Source: Ascidia mentula
Taxonomy: Eukaryota > Chordata > Ascidiacea > Phlebobranchia > Ascidiidae
Length of the DNA stretch: 64,000 nucleotides
Reading direction: 5' to 3'
Assembly: GCA_947561715.1 (NCBI GenBank)
Contig: OX387202.1
Location: 19,791,001-19,855,000, forward strand
Below, one piece after another: positions 7,858 to 64,000 of the stretch; position 1 is the stretch's first letter, and the number at the start of each line of letters is the position of its first letter. The notes under the pieces are model-generated. The model ran no database searches, was not told where the DNA came from, and saw only the letters and a program-made list of their open reading frames with translations. A program made the translations under genes and the position numbers.

Positions 7858-9431
7858 AAGAAAGGCAAACTTGGGAAAAACCTGCAAATATCAATGTTTC
7901 TTACAAACGAAAAATAAAAACTGATTTTCATTTTGTTAAAAAAACAGTTTTATTTGACGTCATTTATTTTTTGATAAAAAATCCGCTTCTAAAGTTTATT
8001 CCTCGTTGTGCTATCTGGAAGCATTTGTATCTGATTTCCTTTTACCGCAAAAATCACATTCTTACCATTCTTCCTGATGTTGTTGACGAATTCCCGACAA
8101 TTTTCTGATTCTCTTTTTTTTTGGTCTGAATCAAATTTTTCTTGTTGAATAATTCTGATGCAACTTCACGGTGATCTTGTCTCTTATATACCTCCGATAA
8201 GCGACGAATAAAAATACCCAACAGTCCATGCTCCCCCAAAACTGTTGTCATGCCCCCCCAATCTGCATGTTAATCATGCGATAAATCCGTTTTCTTTTAA
8301 CGTTGGTTCTTCCTCTGCAACAGAACTTTATTTGAATGCAAATCATTATGAAAGGTTTTGTCGCTTTATTGTTTGATGAGATTTGATTTTTCGGATCAAA
8401 TCCCAAGTTCCGCGTATTTCAAAACAAAAACGTGATTTATGTGAATTTCCTCCAAACCCACACACCAGCTGCTAGTGTCACATGATCCACAATTGTGACG
8501 CAACAAGAAACCGGAGAAGGTTGGGCGTCAACGCCACTCTTGTAGCAGTTCTACCCTAATTATTTTTTTTATATCGAGTAGTTGACCACAGTGTTAAGCA
8601 CAAAAGGAGTTTTTCCGGGTGAACACGAAGCCTTCAAGACGTCAAACAAACCAAGATATTCCAGGCAAACTTTCGACACTATGAATGTAGATAGATGTAC
8701 GAACCGTAATCCGGTTTATGTTGTTTTCGTTTTTTTGTGTTGTTTGTGAGCAGGATTTCGTCTTAAAGCATTTGGCATTTTTTTTATGAAACTCTTTTTG
8801 TTGTTGGGAAATTTGTAACTTCAGCGGCGGCCAAACAACATGGTCGACAGCATGAAAAAATACTTTTTCAACCATCTTCAATCCCTCTAAACCTTTTTGT
8901 TTCGTTTTTTTACTGTTTGGGAAGAAAATAATCGTATCCAACTAGAGTTTAAACACGGGTTACATCTAAAAAATTACCTTTTTGTGGGTCGTGATGCGCC
9001 CACGCACCAGCTGACACAAAAACTTGGTTCAAATTACAATGAAGCGAGTGACGTACACTGATGGTAAATGATAAACCTTGTAAGGGCAAAAAGAAATCTA
9101 TGATGAATTTTGTTGCATTAAATTTCTTGTTATATTTGCTTTTTGTTGTTTTACAAATTACCACTTAACTTTATATTTATAAAGCGTGACGGACTTTCTC
9201 ATGCGTGACAAATAAAATCCCGCTCATGCGAAAATGGTATTTTGTTGTTAATGTGCTAAGTAGTAAGAAAATATATTTCCGTTCTTTATCAACAAAATAG
9301 AGGCAATATTATGCAATTAAACATGTGGTGACACAATGCGCGGATTACAAATAAAACTTTGCAAATGTGGCAAATATCTTCCGCGCTATTTTGCCTGAAA
9401 ACAGTTTATTTGTTTTTTTCGTGCTTCTAGC
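7858..9431. other. Gene-poor interval with one or two doubtful minus-strand exons
   Basis: Between two divergent genes (7857 minus, 9432 plus) I see no firm gene. One possible minus-strand exon at 8154-8066 has a CAG acceptor, a GTAAG donor and an open frame including RESENCREFVNNIRKN. Its phase does not join the signal-peptide exon of the neighbouring small secreted gene. Another open stretch at 9164-8979 ends at AAG/GTAATT. Neither has a recognisable domain. The remainder is AT-rich and unassigned. Confidence 0.3.
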
Positions 9432-11867
9432 ATGATGGGAGTTACTTATACGTATTTAATGATGTCTTCCTGCGACTGTAAAAACGTTTTAATTTTACCT
9501 TTAGATTATCTTTTAATTCTTCAAGCAAATTGGTCAGTTTATTTTGAGAAAAACAGACGTTTTACGGCAAACATGATTAAGCGACATCATCCAAGAAGTG
9601 GTTACATCAAGCGGCGCCACAGAAGTTCCCTGGTACCAAACACTTCCTCATCCCAAACCAATAAAATACCATTTGGTTGCAATGTCTGCAATTTTTCATC
9701 GTATAGCATCCGCAAATATGTCTTGCATGTCAAGGTTAAACACTTTAACCCTGTGCTTGAAAACGATGACAATTCCAGCAAAGAAGGTCAAAGGAACATG
9801 AATAATGCTGATGTTTCTATGTCAGTGGAAAATCCTGATATTGAGAAGGTCGAAAACACTAATGTTGTCTGTGATCCTGATAAAAACGAAATGGAAATTG
9901 TAGAAACAAAAGATGAAAATAATCAGCAATTATCGGAACCTGCTGTTATAGACAATCCTTATGACAAATACAATTCTTTAAATTCAAGCAGTAATTCACA
10001 AACCAGTGACAGTCCAAATATCTCTGCTGAAGAAGATAAAAGTCACTCTGGCAAAGAACCTAAGAATGCAATAGTCGATAATATTGATGAAAATTTTGCT
10101 GAAAATTTAAAAAACCCTGCCCTGAAATCTTTCTCAAATACAGAACATGAATTTTTGCCAATGGAAAGTCACAAAAACCCTACAGCTCCCAAAATTGAAG
10201 AAAAACCTTCACAACCCGTGGATGAAAATAATGCAACTGAAATCACGAGAAACAACAAAATTGAGAAGACCTCAAAATCTGTCAATGAAACTAAAATCTT
10301 GATAAACAAACATGCAGAATCTAATGGTGAGAAGACAGACCAGAAAAAACAATTATCCCAGCAACCTTTAATAAAAGTTCCCAAAGATAAATCATCACCG
10401 CCGAAAAGCAAGAGCTGCTCTAAGTTGGAGGATATTGTGCACAACTTGAAAGATCACCTTTCTTCTCAATCCAATAACAGCAGTGATCGGTCAAACACAA
10501 GTTTGTCACCAGGTGGGATTGAACATGAAACAAATTCTCCCAAAGCAACCGCAAGCGCATCTTCACAAATGTCACCCACGTTATCAACAACAACTGCAGG
10601 AGCCGATTGCAGTAAAAGTTTACCTGGAACTCAGAGAAAACGACGTGTTTCACAACCAGATATTTCTCAATCATCCCATCCAACTCTACCAGGTATTGTT
10701 TTTCACAAACAAAGACCTCCTGGACATCAAAATGTGCCGTGCAATAGTGGTGCACCAAATGTTTTAAATTACAACACCATTATTGACCCCCGTGAGTTGT
10801 TTTCTGCAATTGCTGAAAGGAGGATTGTCAGTTTTCCAAATATGAGAATTATTTCTTACATTGATTCCAACCCAAAAATTCGCTCAGTACTTCTGCACAG
10901 TTTCTCAAAGTTCCCCTACCCTCCTGTGGAGGAAATTTGCTACTTGTCGAGCGTAACCAAACTCTCAGTCCCACAGATTAAGAACTGGTTTGTTGGGGCA
11001 CGCATTAAGTATGGGATCAGTTGGAGTCCTGATGAAGTTATGGAAGCCTGGTCTTTTGTTGGTGGCCAACCTGTTAACAATGTGACACAACCTTTGGTGA
11101 GCCCACCTGGCGGCCCTGGGCCAAACTTGCATAACGCGATACCAAAACCAAATGCTATGATGATGAATAAACCATTAGGAGTTGCACATTTTCCTGTGAA
11201 TCCCACTGTATGGATGACTTGCAACTGTGGATTGGAACATGAACTCAATCCATCCCAGATTGGGATGCTTAATAATATGGGAGATAACATTAACACAATG
11301 CCCAGCGGTCACATGTTGCAGAATGCACAGCAGGTCACTGGCCTGCCTTTGTGTGCTGTTGAATCTTTTTTTCAAGGCAAATGTGAAGTTAACAACAAAC
11401 AAGTTCCAAATACATTGGGAAAATCTTCAAAACGAAAATCTGCAAAACGTGGAATGAAAAAAGTCTCCAAAGCGATTTGTGACGGAGAGCATTTGACTGC
11501 TGACAGTAGCCCTCCTCTTGGTGCTGGTGGTGATGTTTTAATTGTTCCACTAAATAATCAAAGCCTGCCTAATCCTCCTGCCAACCAAGCTGGACTCGAT
11601 GTCTTGTACGAGAGCTTCTGTATCGAGCCATATCCAAGCGACAGTGAAGTCCAGAGAATAGAAATGGCAACAGGGATTGGAATCACAACCATCCGTGAAT
11701 ATTTCCTCAGCAAACGCAGAGAAATGCAGGAAAGGTTAAAGTTCACGTCTGCCAAGCCGCACCAGATCGAAGTTTATGAAAATTACGCCTCATGGGCTCA
11801 AGATTTGGAAATGAGTCGAAGCGTCCACCAACAAGCCATAAATGCCTGTTCACAATTAAAGAAATAG
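9432..11867 (+). CDS. ZHX: ZHX/HOMEZ-type zinc-finger and homeodomain protein, single-exon CDS
   Basis: An uninterrupted 811-codon frame encodes a probable nuclear DNA-binding transcription regulator. A C2H2 finger lies at residues 83-104 (C83, C86, H99, H104: C-x2-C-x12-H-x4-H). A long Ser/Asn/Lys-rich low-complexity region follows. Homeodomain 1 lies at about 465-530, with FPYPPVEEICYLSS and IKNWFVGARIKYGISWSPDEV. The GISWSPxEV tail after the recognition helix is characteristic of ZHX homeodomains. A second, more diverged homeodomain at about 705-765 contains IREYFLSKRREMQERLK. Vertebrate ZHX proteins have two fingers and four or five homeodomains, so this one is simpler. The start is uncertain: the first ATG follows an acceptor-like TTCTAG, and the ATG at 9573 (MIKRHHPRSG) is an equally good initiator. 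Introns may exist only in the 5' UTR. Confidence 0.85.
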   Translation: MMGVTYTYLMMSSCDCKNVLILPLDYLLILQANWSVYFEKNRRFTANMIKRHHPRSGYIKRRHRSSLVPNTSSSQTNKIPFGCNVCNFSSYSIRKYVLHVKVKHFNPVLENDDNSSKEGQRNMNNADVSMSVENPDIEKVENTNVVCDPDKNEMEIVETKDENNQQLSEPAVIDNPYDKYNSLNSSSNSQTSDSPNISAEEDKSHSGKEPKNAIVDNIDENFAENLKNPALKSFSNTEHEFLPMESHKNPTAPKIEEKPSQPVDENNATEITRNNKIEKTSKSVNETKILINKHAESNGEKTDQKKQLSQQPLIKVPKDKSSPPKSKSCSKLEDIVHNLKDHLSSQSNNSSDRSNTSLSPGGIEHETNSPKATASASSQMSPTLSTTTAGADCSKSLPGTQRKRRVSQPDISQSSHPTLPGIVFHKQRPPGHQNVPCNSGAPNVLNYNTIIDPRELFSAIAERRIVSFPNMRIISYIDSNPKIRSVLLHSFSKFPYPPVEEICYLSSVTKLSVPQIKNWFVGARIKYGISWSPDEVMEAWSFVGGQPVNNVTQPLVSPPGGPGPNLHNAIPKPNAMMMNKPLGVAHFPVNPTVWMTCNCGLEHELNPSQIGMLNNMGDNINTMPSGHMLQNAQQVTGLPLCAVESFFQGKCEVNNKQVPNTLGKSSKRKSAKRGMKKVSKAICDGEHLTADSSPPLGAGGDVLIVPLNNQSLPNPPANQAGLDVLYESFCIEPYPSDSEVQRIEMATGIGITTIREYFLSKRREMQERLKFTSAKPHQIEVYENYASWAQDLEMSRSVHQQAINACSQLKK

Positions 11868-15746: not shown

Positions 15747-17175
15747 TTATGGCACATTTATAACACTGCTTTGTTTGTTTAATCCACTTGAACTGACTGA
15801 TTTGGTGCCGGTTCCAGTTGGGTGGACCTGAAACAACACAAAACACATTCCATGTTAAATACAGCAAGAATTATGTAAATATCAATGGATCCTAAAAATC
15901 AAAACGTTTTAAACTCCAACCAAATATGAAAAAAAATTAGGTAAAATTTAAAATTTTAGGTAAACAGCTGCACTGATGAGAACTAACAGGTCGAAACAGT
16001 GCGTGTACACACCCTGTCTGCAGCTTTGCAATTCAAAATTTTGTTTTGTTACTTACTTGCACCCAGTCACTGGTTTTGCTGGACTTTTCTATCGATTCTA
16101 TGACCGACTGGACATACAGCGCGTCTTCAAACGTTGCTGCAGTTTCCATTGAAGCAAAGTCCCATGTTCGCTTGTCAGCTTGCTGGAGGAATGATTCTTT
16201 TAATGATTCAATAAACTTTATCATCCCTTGACAGAGTGAAGCGGGCATCTGTTCAAAGATGTTTATTGGGAAGATTTCATCAAAACCACTTGGCACAATC
16301 TGGTCATCGGATTCCATCAACTCCTGTTTACTGAATTCATTTCCTGTTGACTTGGTTTTTCCGTACAAAAATCCATCTTTTGCAATGAGGCAAGCGTTGG
16401 TGCCGATAACTAGAACCTCATAAGAGAACTTTCCGGGTACATTGTTGTTCAGAACACAAGTACAACAAGCTCCCTTGTCAAGTTTCATTTGAAAAGTGCA
16501 AAAATCATCGCTGGTAATCTCTCTAAAGCCATTTACTTTAGCTGTGTGCTTCTGGAATGTGGTGAGGAAGCCGTGAACTTGAGTTGCTTTTTGGCTGGTG
16601 ACAAAATTAATGACGTCAATAAAATGACCTCCGAATTGTGCCAGGATACCACCTCCCATTCTACCATCGTGCAACCAGTTGTAGTGTTGGTCCAACTGGA
16701 CACCACTATGCACACGAACCTCTATGACAAGAATGTCACCAATAAACCCCTCCATGACTTTCTCTTTCATTTTTCGAAATGTGGGCAGAAAACGGAGATG
16801 ATATGTCATCAGGGACATTAGGGTAGGGTAGTATTTGGCAGCATTTAACATCCGCAGGGTATCTTCAAAGCCCAGGCCACCAGGACGCTCACAAACCACA
16901 TTTTTCCCAATATTCAGGGTTTTAACAGCGATTTGTGATTGCAGAAAAGGGGGGCTGTGGATACACACCAGATCGACGTCTTGATTAAGAAGAACATCAT
17001 CAATGTTAGATGTAAAGAACGGAATGTCGAGAAGTTTCGCAAGCTCTTCAGCTTCATCTCTTGTTCTTCCCCATAGAGCTTGAATCCGAAAACCAGCACA
17101 TCGCAAAATATGAATGAAAGCTTTTGCAGTGATACCTGTACCAAATACCCCTACACCAGGTAAGAGGTAAGTCAT
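15747..17175 (-). CDS. GFOD: Glucose-fructose oxidoreductase domain protein (GFOD1/2 family)
   Basis: The main exon is 17175-16057 and a short last exon 15827-15747 joins it in phase (GTAAGT donor, TTTCAG acceptor), giving 399 aa. If the intron were retained the protein would end ten codons after the donor. The N-terminus LLPGVGVFGTGITAKAF is the Rossmann dinucleotide-binding loop, identical in layout to human GFOD1/2. DVDLVCIHSPP, KTLNIGKNVVCERPGG, YYPTLMSLMTYHLRFLPTF, and later EITSDDFCTFQMKLDKGACC and TWDFASMETAATFEDALYVQSV all track the family. In C-terminal GFO/IDH/MocA-type domains a Lys in the EKP motif is catalytic; here that place reads CERPGG, and vertebrate GFODs are also altered there. 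Enzyme activity is therefore uncertain. The last exon is supported only by splice sites and phase. Confidence 0.93.
15966..16025 (+). ncRNA. Type I hammerhead self-cleaving ribozyme
   Basis: All conserved parts are present in order. Stem I 5' strand AGCTGCA (15966-15972) pairs perfectly with TGCAGCT (16019-16025). The core CTGATGA is at 15973-15979. Stem II GAACT/AGGTC (15980-15992) has one mismatch and an AAC loop. GAAA is at 15993-15996. Stem III ACAG pairs with CTGT (16014-16017) around a 14-nt loop. The predicted cleavage is after C16018 (GTC). Open ends on stem I make it type I. It lies in the last GFOD intron, antisense to GFOD. Such small type I hammerheads are known from Penelope-like elements and retrozymes; no such element is recognised around this one. 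Activity is inferred from structure alone. Confidence 0.82.
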
Positions 17176-18227
17176 AATTGTTTCACATTTTAAGTCATTT
17201 CAATAGGTGTTAGATCTACAAATTTCAACAGGTTTTCATGAAAAAAACTAAGTGAATGAAATGACATTTATTTCTTGTTTCTAAACTGAATACTGTATAA
17301 ACTAATAAAATTTATAAAAACTTCTACACAAAAATTAACGGTTTATTTCAGTTGGTGGGGAAAACCTATTTTAAGTTTTCATTATTTCAGTTATTCAATT
17401 TGCAGCAAGATAACTTGTTTTTTTCCAAAAATAATAAAGGGCAAGACAACTTTTAAACATCTTAACAAAGAAACTTTTAAAAGTAATTACAGACTGCCTG
17501 CTTTTAAGAGCGCAACAGTTGCAAAAACAACACCTCACAAAATGCCGCACACAGTCAAACATTTACGCATGACTTTCCATTTGCATTTCAGATGGGAGAA
17601 GGGGTCTCGCCTGTTTTCTGTAGCCGACCTCTTCTGGCGAATTTTTATGCCTAAAAAAAACCTAAATTGTGATGCAAAAATAATTTACTAATAATTCCTA
17701 TATTTGTATGGTGTAATACAATACATCTGTTTTTGTTTTGCAATACCCTTGTTCATCTAATTTGATTGTTATTTGTTGTTGATAAAGTTGTCTAATTTGA
17801 ATTAATTACTTACGTACAATTAATTATAATGAAATTTTAAATAAACATATCTTACCAACACTACAATATATGATAAACTTCCGAATATTTAACTGTACCG
17901 CAGTGTGAAATATGAACTTTTTCTCTCGTTTCGCAAGAATTGTGATTTGTACTTTATGTGTGGGTAGAACTTGTTGCAGAATATTTCGTGAGGTTTGTAG
18001 CTTCGATGTTTGGACATTTTGGCTCACAGGAAGGGTGTTATGACGCCATTGTAGCTTACATTAAATCTGCCGCTAGCAAAGCTAGGTTTTTGTTGTTTGT
18101 GTGTTTCCTATGTGTAGCTTTGAGTTTAAATAATATATTGACAAACCATTTTCAATTTCTGTGCATTAGGTTGTGTCTGTATGTTTAGCAGTGCTTGTGG
18201 TTTTTGTGAACCAAAAGATTAACAAAA
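17176..18227. other. Divergent intergenic region between GFOD and VAP starts
   Basis: About 1 kb lies between two head-to-head genes and probably holds both promoters. It is AT-rich; I see no clear TATA box or repeat and no supported coding exon. Confidence 0.4.
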
Positions 18228-27921: not shown

Positions 27922-30900
27922 ATGGCCGAATCTGACGTCACAACAGTGGTAAGTGTTCTATTCATACATTATTCAAATATATCAAAACACTCTATTGCGT
28001 AAATATGCTTTTACTCGCCCACCTTTAAAACAACACAGCATTCGGTATCATAGAGTGCATTGTTACGTCACACACGTGGGTTTGTGATGACCGGCCCGAG
28101 ACAAGCGGCGTGGAGGCAATTTCTCCTAGCTGTGTTAAAGGCACTTGGAAGTGCTTGAACGTTTGTGACCAATTGTTAAGTAATGTTTGTAAGATCCAGT
28201 GAAATACTTACATATGAAAGTTGACTGGACTCACCAGTTGCTTCAAGTCAACAAAGTCAATACAAAGTAAAATGCACTTTAACTCTGAAGAAAAATGTTA
28301 ATTTATTCCAAACAGACTTGATATTTATTGCAACAAATCATTTTAACAGTTATCAATAAATATCCTCGAAAGTGTAGCTCAACTCTACATAACAAACCAT
28401 CGGCTGCACATTTAATATATTGAGTTCAAATGTTCTTTTTTGACATCATATAGTGTGTATAGTGAAACCATCTATTGTAACACAGGGCGGAAGAGTTTGG
28501 TTGGTGAATGGTTCAAACGCAGACGAATGGACGCCGGCTGTGGTTGTTGAATGCGACGGTGTGGAGGTTGTGTACAAGACTGACTATGGAGAGGTAGGTG
28601 GTACTATAAAAAAGCCTGAAGCAATGTTTCGTTCGTTATGTGGAATGAATTGCTTTATTGTGGTATTTTTGTAAACGAACTTGGGTCATGGCACCAGCAG
28701 AAGGGACAAAATGGGGTCGCGTGTTTAATGTGTTTATGTTGAAATAACTGTACAGTACTTAACTGGTTTAAAATTTTAAGCTAACCATAAGTTTACGTGG
28801 AACAAGCACTTCCGCAACCGCCGTGACCGCAAACAAGTCCTTTGCGAACCACAACGTACATAACTTACAACCCAACAGTTCCACAAAAACCAACCAGCAC
28901 TCACCAGACACTTGTTGTCGTTACTGTTTGCTGAGCGGCTGTGACTCAGCGTGGCTTCCTTTGACGCAATTCTGTACCTTGGCTCTTGTTTACGTTTCGG
29001 ACCGATCGCATCCCTAACAAGTCGGCGATCGCAATGTTTCTCTCGTGTCTGCGCTACAGCCCTGCTGATGACCAAACATTTCTTAAATCACGTGTCTTTA
29101 CCCACTTGTAAACCGGGCCATGAGTCATTATTACAACTCGCTACAGAAAGGACGCCTTAACCTCATGATGTATTGATATTCGGAAAAACGGCCTTCGCTT
29201 GATCTATGGTTAAGTTTATCTGGCGCGCCTTGAAGATCGGTTGAGCGTGAAAATAATGCCTGCGTTTAACCGGTCAATGTTGCACGAAAAGTTGTGGTCA
29301 CCTGGCTTAAACCACGAAGCAGGCAATAAACCTTGCTTTAACTAACTTTAGTTTGTTACAAATGCATTGGAAATTCCTGAGAAACATTTACAACATTCTC
29401 GTGGCAATCACGTGTTTCTCGGTTGAAAGAGTGGGAGGTATTTTACTTCCTCCTATAATACAGGTAGTTACAGTTCTTCTTGCCATGTGAGTTTGACATT
29501 TGCCGAAACTTACTAATGCTTGCCAAACATTTGCGAGCCGTTTGTAAGGGCGATGTCCTGAATATGTTGACAAAGAAAGTTCATTGAACAAATCACAATT
29601 CGGGACGAAAATATTTTCAAACATTGAAAATCAGCTCCCTTGCCATTTTCAAACCGATGGCGTACCCAAGTTGTCATGCGTGCCTTACGATGTTGTGCAC
29701 CCTGTCCTAACTGTTATGCCACAAAATATGTAGCTGTGGAAGTAACCGATATATATTGCCTGTCGGCCTAGCAACCCTAGCACAAACCTTCACCGCTCCG
29801 TTATAAAACAACTGAAAGTTTTGGGCAGACTTCATGGCTTTGGGCAGTTTCTTTTCACTGTAGTACAGGAGTAATAATCACAATCGAGCGGTTTTCTTTG
29901 GGGCAAAACCAAGGTCGTGGAAAGTTTTGCCGCCTGTCTAATACGTTGCTCTCATCCGCCATTCGAAAAGATACGTGCGAAAGTGACGTCACAAAAGTGA
30001 TAACTTGGCGTTTTTAAAGGGAATGCAGAATCGTTTGCGTATTATTGGATTGGTAGAAGATGAATGGTTCTACTGCTGGGGAAAAATTGTTTTCTTTGCC
30101 AAAAAAGGTGACATTTTCAGCGTCACGCACAGAGCTTGTGTATTTCCTGCAACTTAGCTTCCCTGAAAGCTTTAATGCCGCTCAAACTTACTCTGTTCTC
30201 CTGCACAATTTCTCAATGCTTTCGATTTACACAAGATTTCAATGCCCTTAGTTGAAGCCATTGTTGTGAGTTTTGCGTTGAAACGTTTCCTGATATTAAG
30301 CGACTTAAAACACTGGTGAAAGGATTTTGGCTCCCGTCGTTTTGTACGTCACAATGGATGTAGAACTCCTCATTCATTTCAGGACAAGGAGCTTTGCTGA
30401 AACAAAAAATTCCCGGTTTAACGGCAGCAGGCAACGATCTCAAGGCTGATTCACGAGGAAATTATCTTTTTTATGGACTCATTACTTGATGAATTGATCC
30501 ATCCCAATGTCTTTAAATTTTCTACAAAACATATTTTTATTTTGTTCCATAGTTGCAGTTGAACCGATATATTGGTGTTTAACCACGAGGTAAATGCCTT
30601 TAGTTTATATTTACTGTCTCTATATGAACCATGGGCGGAAAAAAATACCCCCTGCAAACAGGGTGTACACACTGTTTCAACTTGTAAGGTCTTATAAGTG
30701 CAGCTGTTGACTGTGGCCAGCGAATCGACGTTGACCGAAAGGTACCACAAAGTGGAAATCTGTGTGCCTGCTAGTGTAAAAGCTTGCGCAGTGCCACAGT
30801 CAATAAGCTGCACTGCCTAAATTAAAGTGTAAACATTAATTGCTTGTTGCAATAGTAACATGACCTGCGGTCAGCTTAATTGGGAACTACAGTATACAAA

Positions 30901-36900: not shown

Positions 36901-39900
36901 CCACGTGCTGTTCCCTTTACTAAAATACGTGTTTTTTAATTCATATAACAAGAGAAAAAAATGTTGCTCGGTATTCCGATCAAAATGTCTGCTTTGTGGG
37001 TACTTTTGCGTGCAAAGTTACTGATTTCCAAGCAATGTTCCAAGCATTCGTCACAAAGTTTATGTTGATTTGTGAATAATATCTGGTCATGTGACTTTGA
37101 GTCGTACAAAGCTTTGCTTTCGCATGTATTTCCATCAAAAAACCCGTCACAGTTACCAATGTACCAGAAATAGGCAACAAATTGTTTTAATCCAAATCAG
37201 TTCGAAAGCAAGTCCTGGGTTATACTTTATTACCGAATGTAAATTGTGCTTTTACATCACTTACAAAATATATGTTTTGAATATCGTTCGTAGATAACAA
37301 TATAAGCCTCGGTGTAAAAAGAATCGTGAGGTCGAACTTCCCCAGCAAGTTGCAACTTATTTCGTGTCGACCTTATTTGATCGCTTTTCATTCACACGCT
37401 ATCTCTAGTTCGGAAATGATGACGTCACAATACCACGCCGGACGTGACAAGGCCTAAATGTTTTCGTGCCAGTTTGTTACGTCACAGTGATGAATTATCG
37501 TGAAATTTTTATTGTTTGGAGTTGGGGACATTTGATGCGATGAACTTTCGAGCCAGCGCTGTTTTAAAACTCGGAATCATGAATTGCTGAACTGTTGCAA
37601 ATGCAGGCTTTGCCATGGATGGTTTTCACGACCCGAAAAGCTACATATTTTCATAAGAACAAATATCAACCCCTTAACTTTCCCTTCTTCGTGTTTAGCA
37701 AGCGCTCAAAACGATTGGTTTCAAAGACGGCCAACAGCAGGACATGAAAAGTGTGCTTGCTGGGATTCTCCAACTTGGCAATGTTGCTTTTGCCAACGCT
37801 GGTGGTGCCCAAGTCGTTGATGTGGACGGTAAGTCTTTCTTTCTTGTATGTCTTATACAATTACACATGTATAACTAATTGGTCAGTACATAACATTTCG
37901 TTTTACACGGGTATCAGTGCTTTAATAATTTGTATCACAAAGTTTATCTATAAGCATTGGTGTTTATCCTGCCTTTGTTGGTGACCCCGATGTTCGACCA
38001 AATTTAACCACGGACGTAAACACTTGGTTTCTTTCTTTGTTCTCTGCTCCTTATTTATTCCTTGGGCGTTTGCCTTCTCTCAATCACGTCTTTCGAAATT
38101 TAACGATGGTCGGATATCTTTGATTTTGTACGTTTTAACCTCGACCACTCAACTCAAGCAATCCGTTTCCTTGCTTGTTTTAAGTTTAGTTTCCTATTAT
38201 GTAAACTACTTTCGTTTCCTCCACTTTGTAACATAGGAAAAGCGTTTCTTCCACCGGATATCTTGCCAGGTAAACGTATTGCTGGTTGTAGGCTGTAGCT
38301 GTCTGTAGATGGAATCATCCGCATGCTTTTAATTAACTCCCAAGTTAGCCAACACTAATTTGCAACAACATGTAGAATGTGCACTAAATCCGATCACCGC
38401 AACTAATATTCCCGTGAGTAGGATCCAGGAGGTTTAGTGTGTCTTGCAATGAAGCATTTGTGGTGACAACTTCGCGATAAACATAACTAAAACGAAAAAT
38501 ATTGTTCGCTGGATGGAAAAGCCAAACAATAAACCTTTTCGTGTTGTTTTGAATGTTTCATATTTTAATTTTTAGAGTTGAATCTTTTGTAAAAACAATT
38601 TATGTAAAATAAGCATGGGGTCCTGTAGTTATCACGTTAAATCAAATACCTCACCACGGTATGTTGTATTCAGACTCAAGTGCATGCTCGGTAAAACGTT
38701 CACATCTAATGGTTTGTGTCTTATCTAATATCACGGCCACAAGCATGTGTAGTTGTTTGTGTGTAGACAACTTTGTGTGGTTCATTTAGAAGTAATGTAA
38801 ACAGATCTTGGATTTCTGCCTACTTTGTGGTAAAAGCTTGCTGTGAAAACTGTGAGTCATTTAATTCTTAACGTAGAGAGAATAAAGATTCAATAATATG
38901 TGCTGTGGAAAGTCGTGCACTTTGCGTGTGTTGCGCAGACCCAGTGTAAAGTAATACAGACTCCCATAGCTTTCATATTCAGGAAGTTACATTTTGTCCC
39001 TGCAGTTGTTGAGAGAACGTCCAAGTTGCTCGGGATCGACAGTGAGAGGTTGGAGGCGGTGATGAAAGAGAGGACGATGAAGTTGAGAGGTGAAAACATA
39101 ACCTCACCGCAAAGCGTGGATCAGGTAGATGAGACAAGCACAAGGTCATGGTGACCTTGCAGTGGAAACCACTCAAATTCGTATCCAAAGTAGACTTTCT
39201 GTACAACGTAATCACGTTCAAACGCACGGTCGGAAAACGATTTTTCTTTTTAGCTCGGCACTTGTGGTGTTGTGTAAACAAACTGTCCAAATGTTTGTGT
39301 AAATCTGTCTTGCGTCATTAAAGCTTTGAACAGTCCTGACCCGGTTACTCAGCACTTGCGGATCTACGTAAGCATGAGTCAGCAATTCGTTCCCACAGTC
39401 ACGCGTCAACATTTGAACAAGAATAAATATCATATTCAGCTCAAACGCCAACGTTTTAAAGAGTTACACGTCTATATATTCATACTACGTTAATGAGAAG
39501 CTCCAAAAAATGCACAAAATTTTCTTTGTATTACATCCTGTGCAACTATAGTCGAGCCCATGAAATACTATATTCCTTGTCTCTGATTGGCAGGCCTGCG
39601 ACTCACGTGACTCCCTTTCTATGGCGCTCTACTCCCAATTATTCCGTTGGATAATCTCGAAGGTGAATCACCGCATCAAGGGACCGGACGACTTCCATTT
39701 CATCGGAATTCTCGATATTTTCGGTTTTGAGAACTTCTCGGTAACGAAGTTGCTTTGATTGTATGAAGAAAAAGTCCTTGTATAAAATGTTTTTATTGCA
39801 ACCGAAGTTACGTCTGCCATCCGGCGAGGGTTGCCACAAGAACAGTTCCTTTAAACTAACAATACATGTCAGCTAGAGTTACACTGCAGTTGCTATAATT

Positions 39901-53794: not shown

Positions 53795-55525
53795 AAGTTG
53801 ACACCGAGCACTTTTATTGCGTTCAGATTTTAACGAAACTTTAGCATTTGTCGTTCTAGCCACAAACTTGAATGTTAAAATCAGGGGTTTTCCACAGGGT
53901 CACCATATGGACCACAGCGATCTATATCAATGGCTTCCACATTACCACACAATATTACCTTCGCCGATGCATGTTTTTGTGACATTACTCAGCAAAAACT
54001 TTCGTCGGTTGGGAGGATCCACAGAATTAACCAGGGTGTCGTTGGACCCGAACAAGCTCGCGAGTTGTTCCAAGTCTTTCACGTCCCAATAAGGTTTATT
54101 TACAGGATCATGTATCTTATAGTTTCGGCATATACGCTTGCACCCACTCTCAATACTTCGCTCCAGTGTTTAAACCTTGCAGTGACGATTTTCATTTGTT
54201 TTGCCACTTTCACATGTTTTTTTCGCTAGTCATATTCTTTCTTGTCCTGAAGCACTTGGTGATCTTTTCTGTCTATTTTGTTTTCGGGAAACCAAATTCC
54301 ATAACCATAGAAATCACAACCAGCGATAAAGTTGTCAGTCCCACTCATGGCATTTTAACTTGTGATTTGTAATTTCAATATTATTTCACAATTATTTCGC
54401 CCCAATCATGACCCACACCCAAAACATGTGTGTCTGCTTAATTTTAACATCTAAATAGCGTCATCAACACGACGACGTCACCACGTAACATGAAATATTC
54501 CAACCGCTTTCGTACCGATTGTTGTTAACTCTTTTATCCTTAGACTGCCTATCTTTTAACATTGTTATCTGTCTAATATTATTTATTGTACATTTGCATC
54601 AATTTATTGCTTCTTCGATTTGGTTGTTTTATAAACACAGTTCCTTGTATGTCTGCGGCAAGCCAGTTGAGGCCTGTGATGTCACAATTGCTTATTGTTA
54701 CGTTCCAATTACTGATATTGTTTCACTGTCGCTCGGTTTTGAAAAAGAAACAAACCCTGAATTGGGATCGAAAAGAAATTCATATTTTGAGATCTTGTCG
54801 GAAAATTCTGGTTTTTAACAAGGCCTGAAACTGACATCATGACCCTTGGTGTTTGGTGGCTGGAAATTCTATTTATCGAGTAATTTATTTCGGGTTCAGG
54901 AATCAATTCTACAAAACTTCACTCTCTCCATGCCATCTACATTGTGCCATGGAATGCAACCGGCAGACGCATCAGACGCGTCTGTGTCCTCCACAAACTG
55001 CTGTGTTAAGTTTGGTTATTACACAAGAGTGTATAAGGTCTAACCATGGGAGGTGACAAGAAAATGATTTGTAAAGAAAAGCCAAAGCTAGTATGCTACT
55101 CATGCCGAAGCAAACGTTTCAAACACCACTGTGTTCATCATCAGTGCCAAGTAAGAATGAGTTGCAGCAAGGTGTGTGCAGAGGTAGGCAGGTAACTGAA
55201 CAGACAAAAACAACAACACAAATAAAACACGTGACAGACGCCACTCGAAGGCCCACGGCCGTGACGTCATCATTTGGGCTGCAATGAGGACCTGTGTGTT
55301 GACAAGAAACCTTGTTACACAATTTACCCTCACATTAAACCTTTCCCATAAGTCGGAGAAATGGCGCCGCGATATCCGCGCACTTATGTAAATATTTGCG
55401 GTGAATTGGCGTGAATGCATTTTGGGGGTTTATCAGAGAAAGCCAAACTGAACTGAACCAAATTTACTGACATCCTCGAATCAGAAATCAACTGTCGAAT
55501 CTGATGGATCAATGTTTATATTTAC
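53795..55525. other. 3' flank of myosin X, no further gene seen
   Basis: After the stop at 53792-53794 the sequence is AT-rich and probably includes the 3' UTR. Frames such as 53930-54229 and 54519-54818 are open but hydrophobic by T-richness and have no family resemblance. No clear repeat boundary was found before 55526. Confidence 0.4.
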
Positions 55526-58715: not shown

Positions 58716-61700
58716 TTAGACAGTATGCGACCATTTACTTTTATGCAAATATAAAGTATTTCTTTTTTTTGCTAGGTTAAATTCACAGTTACGTAGATTC
58801 TTCAAAAAAAGCACAAATTTCGTTAAGGTCGGATTCGTTTCCGCGTATTTGCTACTGTAAATCACATATCTGGCGCATAACAACGCACAATTCATAAAAA
58901 GTTGACTTGGCAAATCAGAATGCATTCCAAAAAGTTTTTCTGCATCTGTTAAAATTAAATTTTGTCTTATTCTAGCACTTAAATATGAAATTACATCCTC
59001 CCAGTATACATTTACAATGGGGCATGAACAAAAAAGATGACACACAGTTTCAACTTGCTTCTTACAGAAAACGCACATGTTACTAATTACTTTCCCAAAA
59101 GAATGTAGTTGTTTGTTGGTTGTAACGGCATTGAGATTTAATTTAATTTGGAAGCTTCTTAATTTGGTTTCTATGGTTGATTTGTAGACGTTCTTGTAAA
59201 CAAGGGGCCATGGGGTGTCTTCCCCTAACCTTTTGTCCCAGATGTCTTGTGCTTTTGGTTTAGAGGCTTTATTTTTCAGAATGGAATATATATCTTTTGT
59301 TTTGTTCAATGCATGCAACGTCTGAATTAAAGTTTTGACAATGGAATTGTGCGGTGGGACACACTCCATGTCCCACTCGGGGGGAAATTTTGAGACAAGC
59401 TTGATAAATTCCACGAAATCCTTATTATTGGGCGTTAAGCCGTAATTTTTTGCAATCGTATCATATGCAAGATACTCTCCGTTTGTGTTAAGTATGTCTA
59501 TTTGAAATAAAATTCCCGCTTTAATACATGTATTCATGAACCCGGGTTTTGCGTGGTATTTAACTTTGGCATTGAACCATAATGGACGATTGTTCTGTTG
59601 TAAGCCTAGCGTTGTAAAGAGGTTTTTGCAAGCTCCCACGGTGGCTCGTAGGGAACGTAGGGGTAAAATTCGCTTTAACCGTGAAGACTCAACTTTTGCA
59701 TTTCCATTTAAAATTGCCTCCAACCAATTTTCGTTGCAAAGCGGCTTTTCTATCACCTTCCAAGTTTCATTAATGTTGTCATCGTGGAGTTTCCTAAACC
59801 ATTTTAAGTTTAGTGCAAGGAGGTAGTTTTCAACATCGATTACGCCGAGGCCGCCTTCGTCTACATCCAAACATATTGTCTCTCTTTTAACTCTTTCCCA
59901 CTTCGACCCCCAAAGAAATTTAAATATTGGTCGCTTGATTTTTGAAATAAGATCGTTGGTTAAGATTATCGGTAATACACTGAATTTATACGTTAAAATT
60001 GGAATTACCAGAGATTTAATAATTGTTGTCTTTCCGAGTAGTGTCAAGCTTCTTGACGACCAGAGATTTAATACCACTTGGATTTGTTTAAGAGTGGGAT
60101 TAAAGTTCCTGTTTATCATAACATTGTTGTCATTTGTTTTGATTGGTATTTCTACCCCAAGATATTTTATTACATTCTCGGGCCATGACAATCCTTCATT
60201 TTCCATAGGTTTGAAACGTTCATTTCTTTTTGAACCTATGAAAAAGGCGACGGACTTATTCATGTTTAATTTGCACCCTGGCAATTCTCCAAACTCTTCT
60301 ATTACTTTAAATACCTTATGAAAGTCGTCCTCATCTCCCTTTAAAAAAACGATCGTATCATCTGCAAACATTGAGATTTTAAATTCGTGTTGATTAATTG
60401 GAATGCCTTGAAAGTTGGCCTTTTTAAGTGCGCTCGCAAGACATTCTATGCATAAAACAAAAAGGGTAGGAGAAAGTGGATCTCCTTGCCCTACACCTCG
60501 TTTTATTGTGAATTCCGGCGACAAGTGGTTGTTGTTTACTATAATACCGGTCGGTTTCCTGTAAAGGCATTTGATCCAGGATAAAATTTTATTGCCAAAC
60601 CCAAATATTTTGAGCACCTCGTAGATGAAGTCCCAGCTTATGGTATCAAATGCCTTGTATATGTCCAAGGACAGTACCGCACCAGGGATATTACGAAAAT
60701 CTGCGAAATCGATTACGTCGAACAAGAGGCGAATGTTCGTACCAATATATCTACCAGGTATAAAACCGTTTTGACTGGGAGAAATTAGTTGGTTCAAAAC
60801 CGATTTTAATCGCGTATTTATGACTTTGGAGGCAATTTTATAATCTACGTTCAGTAGTGTTATCGGCCTGTAACTTGCCGGTAGGAGAGAGTCTTTTCCA
60901 GGTTTTGGTATTAATGTTACCACCCCCTGCACTTGCGTGTTAGAGAGCGCTCCAGTTGCCGTTGTATATTTCCAAGCTGCCATAAACATGTTTTTCAAGT
61001 TACTCCAAAAGGTTAAATAAAATTCTGCAGGAAAACCATCTAATCCGGGAGATTTATTTTTTGCCATTTGCATAAGCGCCATGTAAAACTCTTTTTCCGT
61101 AATTTCTGCATCTAATTCGATGGCTTGTTCATTTGTTAATTTTGGTAGATCAAGGTTTGCTAATTTAGCAGCGGTGGCACTACTATCCAGATTGTTTGGG
61201 TTTTGTTTGTACAGCTCTTCGTAAAAATTAACAAGATCGGACAAAATAAGCTTCTGGTCTGTTATAATCCCGTTTCCCGACCTTAATTTATCGATGGTTT
61301 TCTTTTGGTTGTGCCGTTTCTCTAAGTTTAAAAAGTATTTAGTATTTTTTTCCCCGTCTTCGGCCCAACGTGCTCTGCTTCTGACGATGGCGCTTTTAGT
61401 TTGGAGCACAAGAAATTCGTTTAATTTGTCCTTAAGTTGCGCTAACTCGGTTAGTAAACGTTCGTCTTCCCCCTTTTTAGTTAAAGTATCTTGCACTTTT
61501 TTTATACGATTTTCGAATTCATGTAGGGTTGCTAATCTGTTTCTTTTAGCGTTTGAGGCGTAACGAATTGTTTCCCCCCTAATCACGGCTTTTAGTGTGT
61601 CCCACCTTGTATGTGGATTTGTATCATTTGGTGGATTTTCGCTTTCGAAGTTGGTGACTACTTTTTTCTCTCTGTAGTTGGTATCATCAAGCAGGGATAC

Positions 61701-62450
61701 ATTAAACTTCCAGTATCCTCTTCCGCGGGACGGAGGGTTGGTATTAAGTTGTAGCGTTATCATACAATGGTCTGACAATATTCCCGGGTCGATATCGGCA
61801 TTTGTAACATTAGAAGTGAGTTGTTTATCTAACAAAAAGAAATCAATACGTGAGGCGGCGTATGGATTTTTCTGAAATCTCGAGTATTTCTGCAGATTTG
61901 GATTTTTTTGTCGAAATATATCTTGCAAGTTTCCTAGAGTTGTATATTGCTCTAACTTTTTCTTCGCATTCCGGTTAGCATGTTTATCGGTACCCGATTT
62001 GTCGAGATTGTCGTTCAATACTAAGTTAAAATCTCCGCCTATAATGACATGGGCATTTGAGAAATTGTTTAGTGATGAAAACAAGTTATCTATAAATTCC
62101 GGTTCGTCCTTGTTTGGTCCGTAGACATTGACAAGGACCAGTTCAATAGCATTGATTGACATTTCAACCATTATGTATCGGCCATCTTGGTCTACTCGAA
62201 CGTTATTTGTATGTTGCGAAGTTGACTTGTCTAGTAGAATTGCAACGCCTCTACTGTTAGATGTGCCATGTGCCCAAAACGCTTTACCTCCCCATTCCAT
62301 TTCCCACAACTTAACTTTGTTAACACTGCTATGCGTTTCCTGCAAGAAGGCAATGTTACACTTTTTACTTCGAAAATATTGAAATATCGATTTGCGTTTC
62401 ATTGTGTTGTTTAAACCGCGAACATTTTGCGAAAAGATGTTGAGAGCCAT
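58716..62450 (-). CDS. LINE ORF2: APE endonuclease, reverse transcriptase, C-terminal zinc knuckle
   Basis: The 1244-aa protein nicks target DNA and reverse-transcribes the element RNA at the nick. Residues about 1-230 form an apurinic-type endonuclease with SQNVRGLN, FLQETHS, VNVYGPN, IIGGDFNLVL, RIDFFLLD and LSDHCMI. These supply the expected Asn, Glu, Tyr, Asp/Asn and Asp-His catalytic set. The reverse transcriptase spans about 480-760: VTLIPKPGKDSLLPASYRPI, NGFIPGRYIGTNIR, LSLDIYKAFDTISW, GVGQGDPLSPTLF and the catalytic MFADDTIVF (about residue 692). A C-terminal CVFCKKQVETVCHLFCSC is the zinc-binding motif of L1-group elements. The frame is uninterrupted. Translation probably depends on reinitiation after ORF1, given the 34-nt gap. 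Confidence 0.95.
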   Translation of the reverse strand: MALNIFSQNVRGLNNTMKRKSIFQYFRSKKCNIAFLQETHSSVNKVKLWEMEWGGKAFWAHGTSNSRGVAILLDKSTSQHTNNVRVDQDGRYIMVEMSINAIELVLVNVYGPNKDEPEFIDNLFSSLNNFSNAHVIIGGDFNLVLNDNLDKSGTDKHANRNAKKKLEQYTTLGNLQDIFRQKNPNLQKYSRFQKNPYAASRIDFFLLDKQLTSNVTNADIDPGILSDHCMITLQLNTNPPSRGRGYWKFNVSLLDDTNYREKKVVTNFESENPPNDTNPHTRWDTLKAVIRGETIRYASNAKRNRLATLHEFENRIKKVQDTLTKKGEDERLLTELAQLKDKLNEFLVLQTKSAIVRSRARWAEDGEKNTKYFLNLEKRHNQKKTIDKLRSGNGIITDQKLILSDLVNFYEELYKQNPNNLDSSATAAKLANLDLPKLTNEQAIELDAEITEKEFYMALMQMAKNKSPGLDGFPAEFYLTFWSNLKNMFMAAWKYTTATGALSNTQVQGVVTLIPKPGKDSLLPASYRPITLLNVDYKIASKVINTRLKSVLNQLISPSQNGFIPGRYIGTNIRLLFDVIDFADFRNIPGAVLSLDIYKAFDTISWDFIYEVLKIFGFGNKILSWIKCLYRKPTGIIVNNNHLSPEFTIKRGVGQGDPLSPTLFVLCIECLASALKKANFQGIPINQHEFKISMFADDTIVFLKGDEDDFHKVFKVIEEFGELPGCKLNMNKSVAFFIGSKRNERFKPMENEGLSWPENVIKYLGVEIPIKTNDNNVMINRNFNPTLKQIQVVLNLWSSRSLTLLGKTTIIKSLVIPILTYKFSVLPIILTNDLISKIKRPIFKFLWGSKWERVKRETICLDVDEGGLGVIDVENYLLALNLKWFRKLHDDNINETWKVIEKPLCNENWLEAILNGNAKVESSRLKRILPLRSLRATVGACKNLFTTLGLQQNNRPLWFNAKVKYHAKPGFMNTCIKAGILFQIDILNTNGEYLAYDTIAKNYGLTPNNKDFVEFIKLVSKFPPEWDMECVPPHNSIVKTLIQTLHALNKTKDIYSILKNKASKPKAQDIWDKRLGEDTPWPLVYKNVYKSTIETKLRSFQIKLNLNAVTTNKQLHSFGKVISNMCVFCKKQVETVCHLFCSCPIVNVYWEDVISYLSARIRQNLILTDAEKLFGMHSDLPSQLFMNCALLCARYVIYSSKYAETNPTLTKFVLFLKNLRNCEFNLAKKRNTLYLHKSKWSHTV

Positions 62451-62484
62451 GATTTGTGTTAAAAAAAATTCTCCGTTGATATTC

Positions 62485-63816
62485 CTATGTTCGATTTACT
62501 CCGAGTTCCATGTCCCACTCGTATTCCATGCCACAATCGCAACGGTAAGGACGACTGGGGCTAATTTGGCGTGCCGATATCTTTTTACACGTACAACTAA
62601 TTATTCTGCATTTACAGATGCTATTTTTACATGCAATCCCCAACGGGGACTTAGGCACAACATTTACGGTTTCACAATCACACTTAAGAGAGTACCTTTG
62701 GCACTGCACGCATTCGAACATGTCTCCATCAAGACGATACTCTGGTTGAAATTCTCTGCAGCAGGGCATAAGTCTCATTGTGTTCTTGCAGGCTGGGCAC
62801 TCACATACTTCCATTCCCTTTTCGGTCAAAAATACTTCACTGGTGCAGCATTCCAATCCTACAGCATATTCTGAACCACGTGACCAGCATGTAAAGGTGG
62901 TTGCATTGACTGGAAATGCTGCTTCTTTTTTGCATTTCTTGCAAGTAACCGTGTTTGTTTGTTCACACAAGCTAATTGATTTGCTTTTCGGCTCCTCCGG
63001 GCTTCTCAGACTTCTCTTTTTGCTATTACCTTTAAGAGGTGTACTTGCTTGCATTTCTCTTTCATGTTGCTTGAAGGTACCTCCTGTGGAGTTCTCTGGA
63101 GCCTCGTCGTCAGTTGCTGCGTGTTTTGCAGCCCTCTTATCAGTTGGGTCTCTGTTATCAGACTTTTTGGTTTTTGCGGCGTTTCGGTGTGGTGTTTGGT
63201 TATTTTGTATTTGTGCACCTAAATCTGGGAAATCCTGTTTTCTAGTTGGACAGTTTGCTTGTTTGTGTCCTTTTCCTCCACAATACTTGCAGGTAAAAAT
63301 TTGCCCATGATAGGTAACATAAAATTCGAAATTGTCAATTCTAATGTAGCTTGGTATCGGGTTTTCTTCTACTTCGTTTAAATTCATTTGGACCACTCTC
63401 ATTCCGGTCAAGAGCCCTTCTTTATCTTTTCTATGGGTAATTCTTTGGACCTTTCCATATTTCTTTGTTAGTTCGTCGACTAGGTATTCGTTAGGAAATG
63501 GAATAGGCACCCATCCGATCGCAACATTAATTTTGTCGCTTTCATACAGTCGGACATATTTAATATCTTCGTTATCAACCAGTATGCCATAAAGCTCAAT
63601 AACATTTTCTCTGCTTGTACATGTAATGTCTAGGTTGTTTCCTCGCATGTCAGCTATACCAACCAATTTTTTAACCGAGTAGTTCACGCTCTTCAGGAAA
63701 GTAAGTAACTCATCTCTTTTTTGGAATTTCTCAGAACGCATAGATAAACAGTTTGGCCTTTTAAAACTTGCCGCTTTCTTGTTTACTGCCTGCGCATAAC
63801 TTGTCTTGTCTGTCAT
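62485..63816 (-). CDS. LINE ORF1: RNA-binding protein with CCHC knuckle and Cys-rich C-terminus
   Basis: The frame is open further upstream, but the target-site duplication places the element's 5' end at 63853. The first internal ATG, at 63816 (MTDKTSYAQAVNKKAASFKR), is therefore taken as the start, giving 443 aa. The N-terminal half resembles the RRM-like part of Tx1-type ORF1 proteins (LVGIADMRGNNLDITC, INVAIGWVPIPFPNEYLVDE). A gag-like CCHC knuckle follows (CKYCGGKGHKQANC). After a charged linker, the last 130 or so residues carry many CxC/CxxC pairs (CKKC, CECPACK, CVQCQRYSLKCDC, CKCRIISCTC), probably a zinc-ribbon module. The product should coat element RNA in the ribonucleoprotein particle. 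Confidence 0.9.
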   Translation of the reverse strand: MTDKTSYAQAVNKKAASFKRPNCLSMRSEKFQKRDELLTFLKSVNYSVKKLVGIADMRGNNLDITCTSRENVIELYGILVDNEDIKYVRLYESDKINVAIGWVPIPFPNEYLVDELTKKYGKVQRITHRKDKEGLLTGMRVVQMNLNEVEENPIPSYIRIDNFEFYVTYHGQIFTCKYCGGKGHKQANCPTRKQDFPDLGAQIQNNQTPHRNAAKTKKSDNRDPTDKRAAKHAATDDEAPENSTGGTFKQHEREMQASTPLKGNSKKRSLRSPEEPKSKSISLCEQTNTVTCKKCKKEAAFPVNATTFTCWSRGSEYAVGLECCTSEVFLTEKGMEVCECPACKNTMRLMPCCREFQPEYRLDGDMFECVQCQRYSLKCDCETVNVVPKSPLGIACKNSICKCRIISCTCKKISARQISPSRPYRCDCGMEYEWDMELGVNRT

Positions 63817-63853
63817 TTTCGCTCCTGCTCGCGCGAGCGTCAGACCTAGAATG

Positions 63854-63867
63854 AAGTGTCTCCCGTT
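63854..63867. repeat. LINE target-site duplication, 5' side of element
   Basis: AAGTGTCTCCCGTT matches 58576-58589. Beyond it (63868-64000) is unassigned flanking DNA that continues the sequence interrupted by the insertion. Confidence 0.88.
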
Positions 63868-64000
63868 CGTAACACTGGGATGAAAATGTACGCACAGCGG
63901 CACCACGTGGTCACTTTCAGGCATTACAAACGCGCCATTAAAGTAACTCGCCAACGAACAGTGATGTTTCCACTGCAGTCAGTACAGTTTAGCTGTTTAG

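Follow-up and report, generated by a model that had tools for sequence, protein, structure and literature searches.

The type I hammerhead on the plus strand of the window (the whole 64-kb stretch of DNA that was analysed) very probably belongs to a 5'-truncated copy of an animal non-LTR retrozyme, a non-coding repeat of about 291 bp that was most likely mobilised in trans by Penelope-like elements. The features assigned to the window are as follows.

15966-16025, plus strand: type I hammerhead, predicted from sequence, folding and a covariance model of 20 other copies
15963-16029, plus strand: 5'-truncated retrozyme copy, 97% identity to the unit over 70 bp
15945-15957, plus strand: left copy of a likely 13-bp target-site duplication with 1 mismatch (score 7.04, cut-off 6.5)
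16030-16042, plus strand: right copy of the likely target-site duplication, its first bases overlapping the element end
15958-15962, plus strand: five bases from the left duplication to the element, possible filler at the 5' junction, judging by the sequence
16036-17199, minus strand: open frame with a GFO/IDH/MocA-family (GFOD-like) exon (Pfam GFO_IDH_MocA and C-terminal domains)
30652-30815, no single strand: second, older head-to-head retrozyme copy with a decayed core, 83% and 88% identity
1085-1136, minus strand: probable relic of a third copy, without GAAA and stem III (model 23.0 bits, E 0.00084)

The hammerhead core reported by the first-pass annotation is real and lies on the plus strand at the positions given there. 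Stem I pairs AGCTGCA (15966-15972) perfectly with TGCAGCT (16019-16025) over 7 bp, and the core contains CTGATGA (15973-15979), GAAA (15993-15996) and a short stem III formed by CAG (15997-15999) and CTG (16014-16016). The GTC triplet occupies 16016-16018, and cleavage is therefore predicted between 16018 and 16019, exactly where it had been placed. Stem II, which had been described as closable, can indeed close, but imperfectly: the segment GAACTAACAGGTC (15980-15992) gives a G-C and an A-U pair, an A·G mismatch inside the stem, and a C-G and a U-A pair. By pattern alone, a chance origin is less improbable than had been claimed, because a looser hammerhead pattern, found once in the window, was expected 0.33 times and reached one match in 27 of 100 shuffles. 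The pattern CTGATGA-N13-GAAA was likewise found once, with 0.05 matches expected and 5 of 100 shuffles reaching 1.

The covariance search that had been suggested as a check succeeded in part. Rfam gave no match at gathering level in the whole window, whereas a model built from 20 other genomic copies, with the window copy left out, recovered the window copy at 84.1 bits (E 1.9e-19, rough calibration). A permissive Rfam search of 201 bp returned RAGATH-1-hammerhead at 27.2 bits (E 0.0077; gathering 56.3), and HH9 scored 13.8 bits against a gathering score of 52, which does not place the sequence in that family. When Rfam was applied to eight other loci, RAGATH-1-hammerhead (28.3 bits, 4 places) and Hammerhead_3 (24.9 bits, 5 places) were found under gathering level, all in L017, L079 and L090; L057 and the four Penelope loci (L072, L073, L074 and L076) showed nothing hammerhead-like up to E 0.5. 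The microRNA-model matches in these eight loci look like palindromes created by head-to-head copies. The RF00163 profile gave no match over the whole genome, a result that says nothing because control genomes gave none either.

The first-pass annotation had seen no mobile element here and had suggested a domesticated or orphan ribozyme. The hammerhead belongs instead to a dispersed 291-bp repeat with thousands of copies, two of which, both decayed, lie elsewhere in the same window. The whole-genome scan for copies, also suggested by that annotation, gave 3,193 matches to the family ribozyme core with up to 3 mismatches (1,604 forward and 1,589 reverse), against 0 for the reversed pattern, and a 131-bp query around the hammerhead matched at least 49 places, itself included, in 195.8 Mb (79 contigs). 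The unit has a GC content of 0.47 (one unit) and is found both in tandem arrays, with spacings of 289-291 bp, and in head-to-head pairs. One three-unit insertion was examined for coding capacity and held no ATG-started open reading frame of 60 aa or more; its frames that start with TTG reached 88 aa at most. The family shows the following traits of animal non-LTR retrozymes: a type I hammerhead (its ends leaving through stem I) with a conserved core, as predicted from sequence and folding; tandem units within about 150-450 bp, of which the window copy is a truncated fragment; a GC content below 50%; target-site duplications longer than 4 bp (43/65 insertions, mode 12 bp); and no protein-coding capacity in the three-unit insertion. 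A Penelope element carries its own reverse transcriptase and GIY-YIG endonuclease, whereas the 291-bp unit has no long open frame and encodes neither.

The window copy measures about 70 bp and holds little beyond the ribozyme, running from unit position 236, just before stem I, to 11-14 nt past the cleavage site (the BLAST match runs to 16032). Its likely target-site duplication scores only just above the cut-off of a caller that also accepts 10 of 252 mismatched flank pairs. As had been noted, the complete core lies on the strand opposite a GFO/IDH/MocA-family gene, for which the name GFOD, used in the first-pass annotation, is fitting. A putative splice donor near 16056, read by eye only, would place the ribozyme antisense in an intron of this GFOD-like gene; in that position and with a damaged stem II, the copy probably does nothing for the host gene. 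The family covariance model listed five places in the window, two of them at chance level (E 0.17 and E 0.45). The second copy consists of a minus arm (30652-30713) and a plus arm (30724-30815), with a model match at 30652-30720 (48.7 bits, E 2.3e-10), and the relic at 1085-1136 gave a weak BLAST match (E 0.014). Elsewhere in the window, an 822-aa open frame with a homeodomain lies at 9399-11864 (plus strand), and an L1-like element at 58719-63978 (minus strand) contains a 1259-aa open frame that encodes endonuclease and reverse transcriptase domains; upstream of it lies a 497-aa frame with a zinc-knuckle-like stretch and no Pfam match.

We scored 65 insertions of the family, a selected sample, with 97 3' ends. 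Target-site duplications were called in 43 of the 65, compared with 10 of 252 mismatched flank pairs, and their lengths were 12 bp (18), 11 (9), 13 (5), 14 (4), 15 (3), 10 (2) and 8 (2). The 3' ends fell past the cleavage site at +1 to +15 (42 ends) or at +29 to +43 (43 ends), with 12 elsewhere. Head-to-head insertions, with both 3' ends outward, made up 32 of the 65 (20 of 52 without the 13 rows of a pre-picked set), a proportion that is not a frequency because 12 of the 14 loci in that set were picked for a listed minus/plus pair. Every head-to-head insertion with a called duplication (25/25) had one end at or before +22 and the other at or after +29, leaving a tail of roughly 30 nt on one side and none on the other, with the short end of L081 lying at -12; the binomial probability against even mixing is 6e-8, with both thresholds chosen after seeing the data. 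By the same thresholds, 28 of the 31 scoreable head-to-head insertions are one-tailed, or 29 if L057 (7/28) is counted. The seven without a called duplication comprise three mixed cases (L020, L048 and L084), L057, two that are not mixed (L065, 7/5; L083, 41/40) and L008, a 102-bp head-to-head piece kept in the sample but outside end scoring; L020 was called 62/4 and reads by eye as about 38/5. The sample leaves out overlapping or duplicated loci (L015, L021, L022, L024, L025, L027-L030, L033, L035, L037-L039, L041, L056, L058, L062 and L063), an array with ends at 16 and 39 (L023), a complex locus (L050) and the Penelope loci L071-L076, and a script filter removed clusters of under about 60 bp as well as those close to the edge of a locus (L026, L089 and some minor pieces).

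In none of the 25 head-to-head insertions with a duplication do the two arms stop at the same unit position: measured around the unit, their stops are 15-143 nt apart, and at the junction the arms either overlap by up to 10 nt or leave a gap of up to 78 nt. The 5' ends do not cluster at the cleavage site; among 18 single-orientation insertions with a duplication, only 3 begin within 9 nt of it. Among the 100 matches listed (C1 and C2), neighbouring ribozymes within 1 kb of each other were arranged minus/plus in 9 cases, of which at least 2 look like segmental duplicates of others (same spacing), minus/minus in 2, plus/plus in 3 and plus/minus in 0. We infer that, in a head-to-head copy, each of the two target strands started a cDNA of its own.

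The host genome, which its gene content suggests to be that of an animal, also contains Penelope-like elements. It has at least 121 GIY-YIG matches, not all of them necessarily Penelope. The loci L073, L074 and L076 hold open frames (879, 801 and 811 aa, respectively) that carry a GIY-YIG domain over the Pfam cut-off, with a reverse transcriptase domain over the cut-off in L073 and L074 and under it in L076. Hammerhead-like motifs were recognised by text pattern and reading in the Penelope loci L072, L073, L074 and L076, in the last three of them near the open frames. Neighbouring GIY-YIG places within 6 kb were oriented minus/plus in 17 cases, minus/minus in 1, plus/plus in 5 and plus/minus in 0, the same polarity as for the ribozymes. 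Four head-to-head Penelope arrays were examined, and in the three with both ends readable the duplications measured 12, 12 and 13 bp and one end was longer by about 42, 44 and 32 nt; this end comparison covers retrozyme insertions and Penelope arrays of one genome. A comparison of the sequence past the cleavage site in five stretches from four Penelope loci revealed no family that clearly shares its 3' sequence: 4 of the 5 behaved like shuffles at 5%, and the stretch from L072 (6 of 500 simple shuffles) gave a weak hint that was lost after correction for five tests. At L072 (reverse-complement 2230-2305), an old, diverged retrozyme-like ribozyme lies near a Penelope 3' region that has its own hammerhead-like motif. 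Two places in the window may be Penelope relics: 39786-39828 (minus strand; 84% over 44 bp to L076) and 55077-55147 (76% over 74 bp to L072).

The end marks of the sampled copies suggest that the family was spread by Penelope-type enzymes. Passages of PMC7229834 and PMC7761336 propose Penelope as the mobiliser of retrozymes from shared type I hammerheads, tandem copies and co-occurrence, and the one-tailed head-to-head signature supports this published proposal beyond co-occurrence. According to parts of PMC3846280, inverted Penelope copies are mostly head-to-head, with an optional 31-bp tail at one inverted pLTR. Parts of PMC11167929 report that purified Penelope protein cleaves and extends both target strands and prefers AT-rich targets, that copying starts internally, and that the tail is the stretch between two start sites. 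The retrozyme insertions agree with both descriptions, in their end signature and in showing extension on two strands from two start sites.

An unlikely alternative is that the window copy is a retrozyme copy of a family mobilised by a LINE, for example by the window's own L1-like element with its long open frames, the head-to-head insertions then arising by L1-type twin priming. Variable 5' truncation and target-site duplications are usual features of LINE copies, and those of the retrozyme family would fit such an origin as well. Twin priming, however, is expected to place the outer end of the inverted arm at varying points inside the element, whereas both outer ends fall within the two narrow clusters in all 25 insertions with a called duplication (in L081 with the short end 12 nt before cleavage). 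In addition, no poly-A end was found in the insertion flanks inspected, and Penelope arrays in the same genome carry the same signature.

It is considerably less likely still that the head-to-head copies were formed by fold-back self-priming of a single cDNA, a route suggested for Penelope in Adineta and proposed, in the relevant passages of PMC3846280, from palindromes at inverted junctions. Fold-back should stop the two arms at nearly equal unit positions, whereas they lay within 10 nt of each other in 0 of 25 insertions. This fits unrelated stops, under which none of 25 would fall that close with a probability of 0.15, and fold-back also leaves one tailed and one untailed outer end unexplained.

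The ribozyme was also analysed by folding. For the common family copy, the 60-nt minimum-energy fold (-19.2) includes the hammerhead helices, and the hammerhead fold itself comes to -17.9. The window copy lies two substitutions apart, one of which breaks a stem II pair, and its hammerhead fold (-11.2) is above a different minimum-energy fold (-14.4), so that by folding its ribozyme is probably weakened. In a 77-nt context, even the family sequence favours a competing helix, with an outer pair probability of 0.87. RNAalifold, applied to 20 copies, likewise favours this helix, which ties up the ribozyme core; both results come from models that ignore tertiary contacts. The helix, formed in the family unit by GCACTG with CAGTGC, is conserved and occupies part of the core. 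It might act as a brake on RNA self-cleavage, or it might be an artefact that arises because the energy models leave out tertiary contacts.

Covariation analysis of 20 copies lent no support, with 0 pairs changed on both sides and a paired fraction not above shuffles. Pairwise differences between copies from 24 loci amounted to 2.8% in the ribozyme and 5.1% in the rest of the unit (rank 15 of 291 shifted masks), which points to a modest extra conservation of the ribozyme. Copies retrieved by an exact ribozyme pattern are biased towards an intact core. Pairwise differences replaced a first estimate that used one copy as reference and had given 3.0/8.6%, 4.4/7.4% and 1.1/3.1% for ribozyme and rest, and 2.8 versus 14.5% in a fourth set biased by how it was found. 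There were 66 distinct ribozyme sequences among 114 places, and the complete hammerhead motif is the common state of the sampled copies. Five loci (L054, L055, L057, L065 and L068) form an older subfamily of the retrozyme, in which the stem III loop is shorter and the core unchanged, an intactness biased by their retrieval through the exact core pattern.

A chance resemblance without any ribozyme is highly improbable: the 0.33 loose matches expected per such window, the absence of any Rfam family at gathering score in it and the competing helix of the longer contexts would all be compatible with chance, but the complete motif is the usual state among the sampled copies of a family whose commonest member folds with hammerhead helices. 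Least probable of all is that the ribozyme is an orphan, or was domesticated within the intron, and acts on a transcript antisense to the GFOD-like gene, since its complete core, perfect stem I and intronic antisense position are outweighed by the thousands of dispersed copies, the likely target-site duplication around the window copy, and the broken stem II pair and non-hammerhead minimum fold, which speak against the domestication that had been proposed.

The retrozyme reading agrees with several known systems in part. Like the animal non-LTR retrozymes described in passages of Cervera and de la Pena 2020 (PMC7229834), the family has a type I hammerhead per unit, duplications longer than 4 bp, a high copy number and Penelope elements in the same genome; it differs from them as presented there in its head-to-head insertions, of which one end is tailed and the other is not. 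Neither this signature nor inverted copies were found in the passages of PMC7229834 searched, and the signature was not found reported for retrozymes in the titles and abstract openings of the open-access papers listed. As in the Penelope-like elements with endonuclease treated in parts of PMC3846280 and PMC11167929, copies occur head-to-head, one end may carry a tail of about 30-40 bp, the target site is duplicated and a hammerhead lies near the 3' start region; the duplications are mostly 11-13 bp here, against 8-10 bp (8, 9 and 10 bp, for example) for Adineta Penelope in the pertinent section of PMC3846280. Plant LTR retrozymes are also non-coding retroelements with hammerheads, but those covered in passages of PMC7229834 have type III hammerheads, LTRs, a length of about 700 bp and 4-bp duplications, in contrast to the type I hammerhead and 291-bp units of this family. 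The amniote HH9 ribozyme shares the location inside an intron; it occurs in few, highly conserved copies according to another passage of that paper, whereas the window hammerhead is a repeat that scores far under the HH9 gathering level. Part of PMC8704543 describes a tunicate genome with 9 type I hammerhead loci.

On the preferred reading, and following the literature on animal retrozymes, the units would be transcribed, the hammerhead would cut the multimeric RNA, and some units would circularise. An enzyme provided in trans, most likely from Penelope-like elements, would then copy the RNA into new sites. Both broken target ends often seem to have been extended; the two cDNAs meet 5' end to 5' end and give head-to-head copies, and the window copy would be one early-terminated cDNA begun near +11.

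On balance, we incline to a further view, in which animal retrozymes parasitise the Penelope machinery and every head-to-head insertion is the trace of a two-sided reaction with different start sites. The enzyme would make a staggered cut of about 12 bp, and each broken end would prime its own cDNA on retrozyme RNA, one priming starting near +10 and the other near +36. Such a difference would be expected of a dimeric enzyme with an asymmetric hold on the RNA, or of an RNA able to serve each site only once, and the two cDNAs would then be joined at unrelated 5' positions. Counting against the preferred reading, purified Penelope protein showed no difference in start site between top and bottom strand in the relevant part of PMC11167929.

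The ribozyme of the window is an ordinary retrozyme remnant, not an orphan. Its family is useful because the earlier Penelope proposal, as set out in parts of PMC7229834 and PMC7761336, rested on shared hammerheads, tandem copies and co-occurrence, whereas these insertions carry the Penelope end signature, which three of the four Penelope arrays examined in the same genome show as well. With short units and both insertion ends easily read, the origin of Penelope head-to-head copies and of the one-sided tail becomes testable by genome annotation. If true, the two-site model would provide one mechanism for the one-sided tail and the head-to-head ends of Penelope and would supply many natural reaction products for study. 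In its insertions, the family preserves in nature a good record of a process that looks like Penelope-type insertion.
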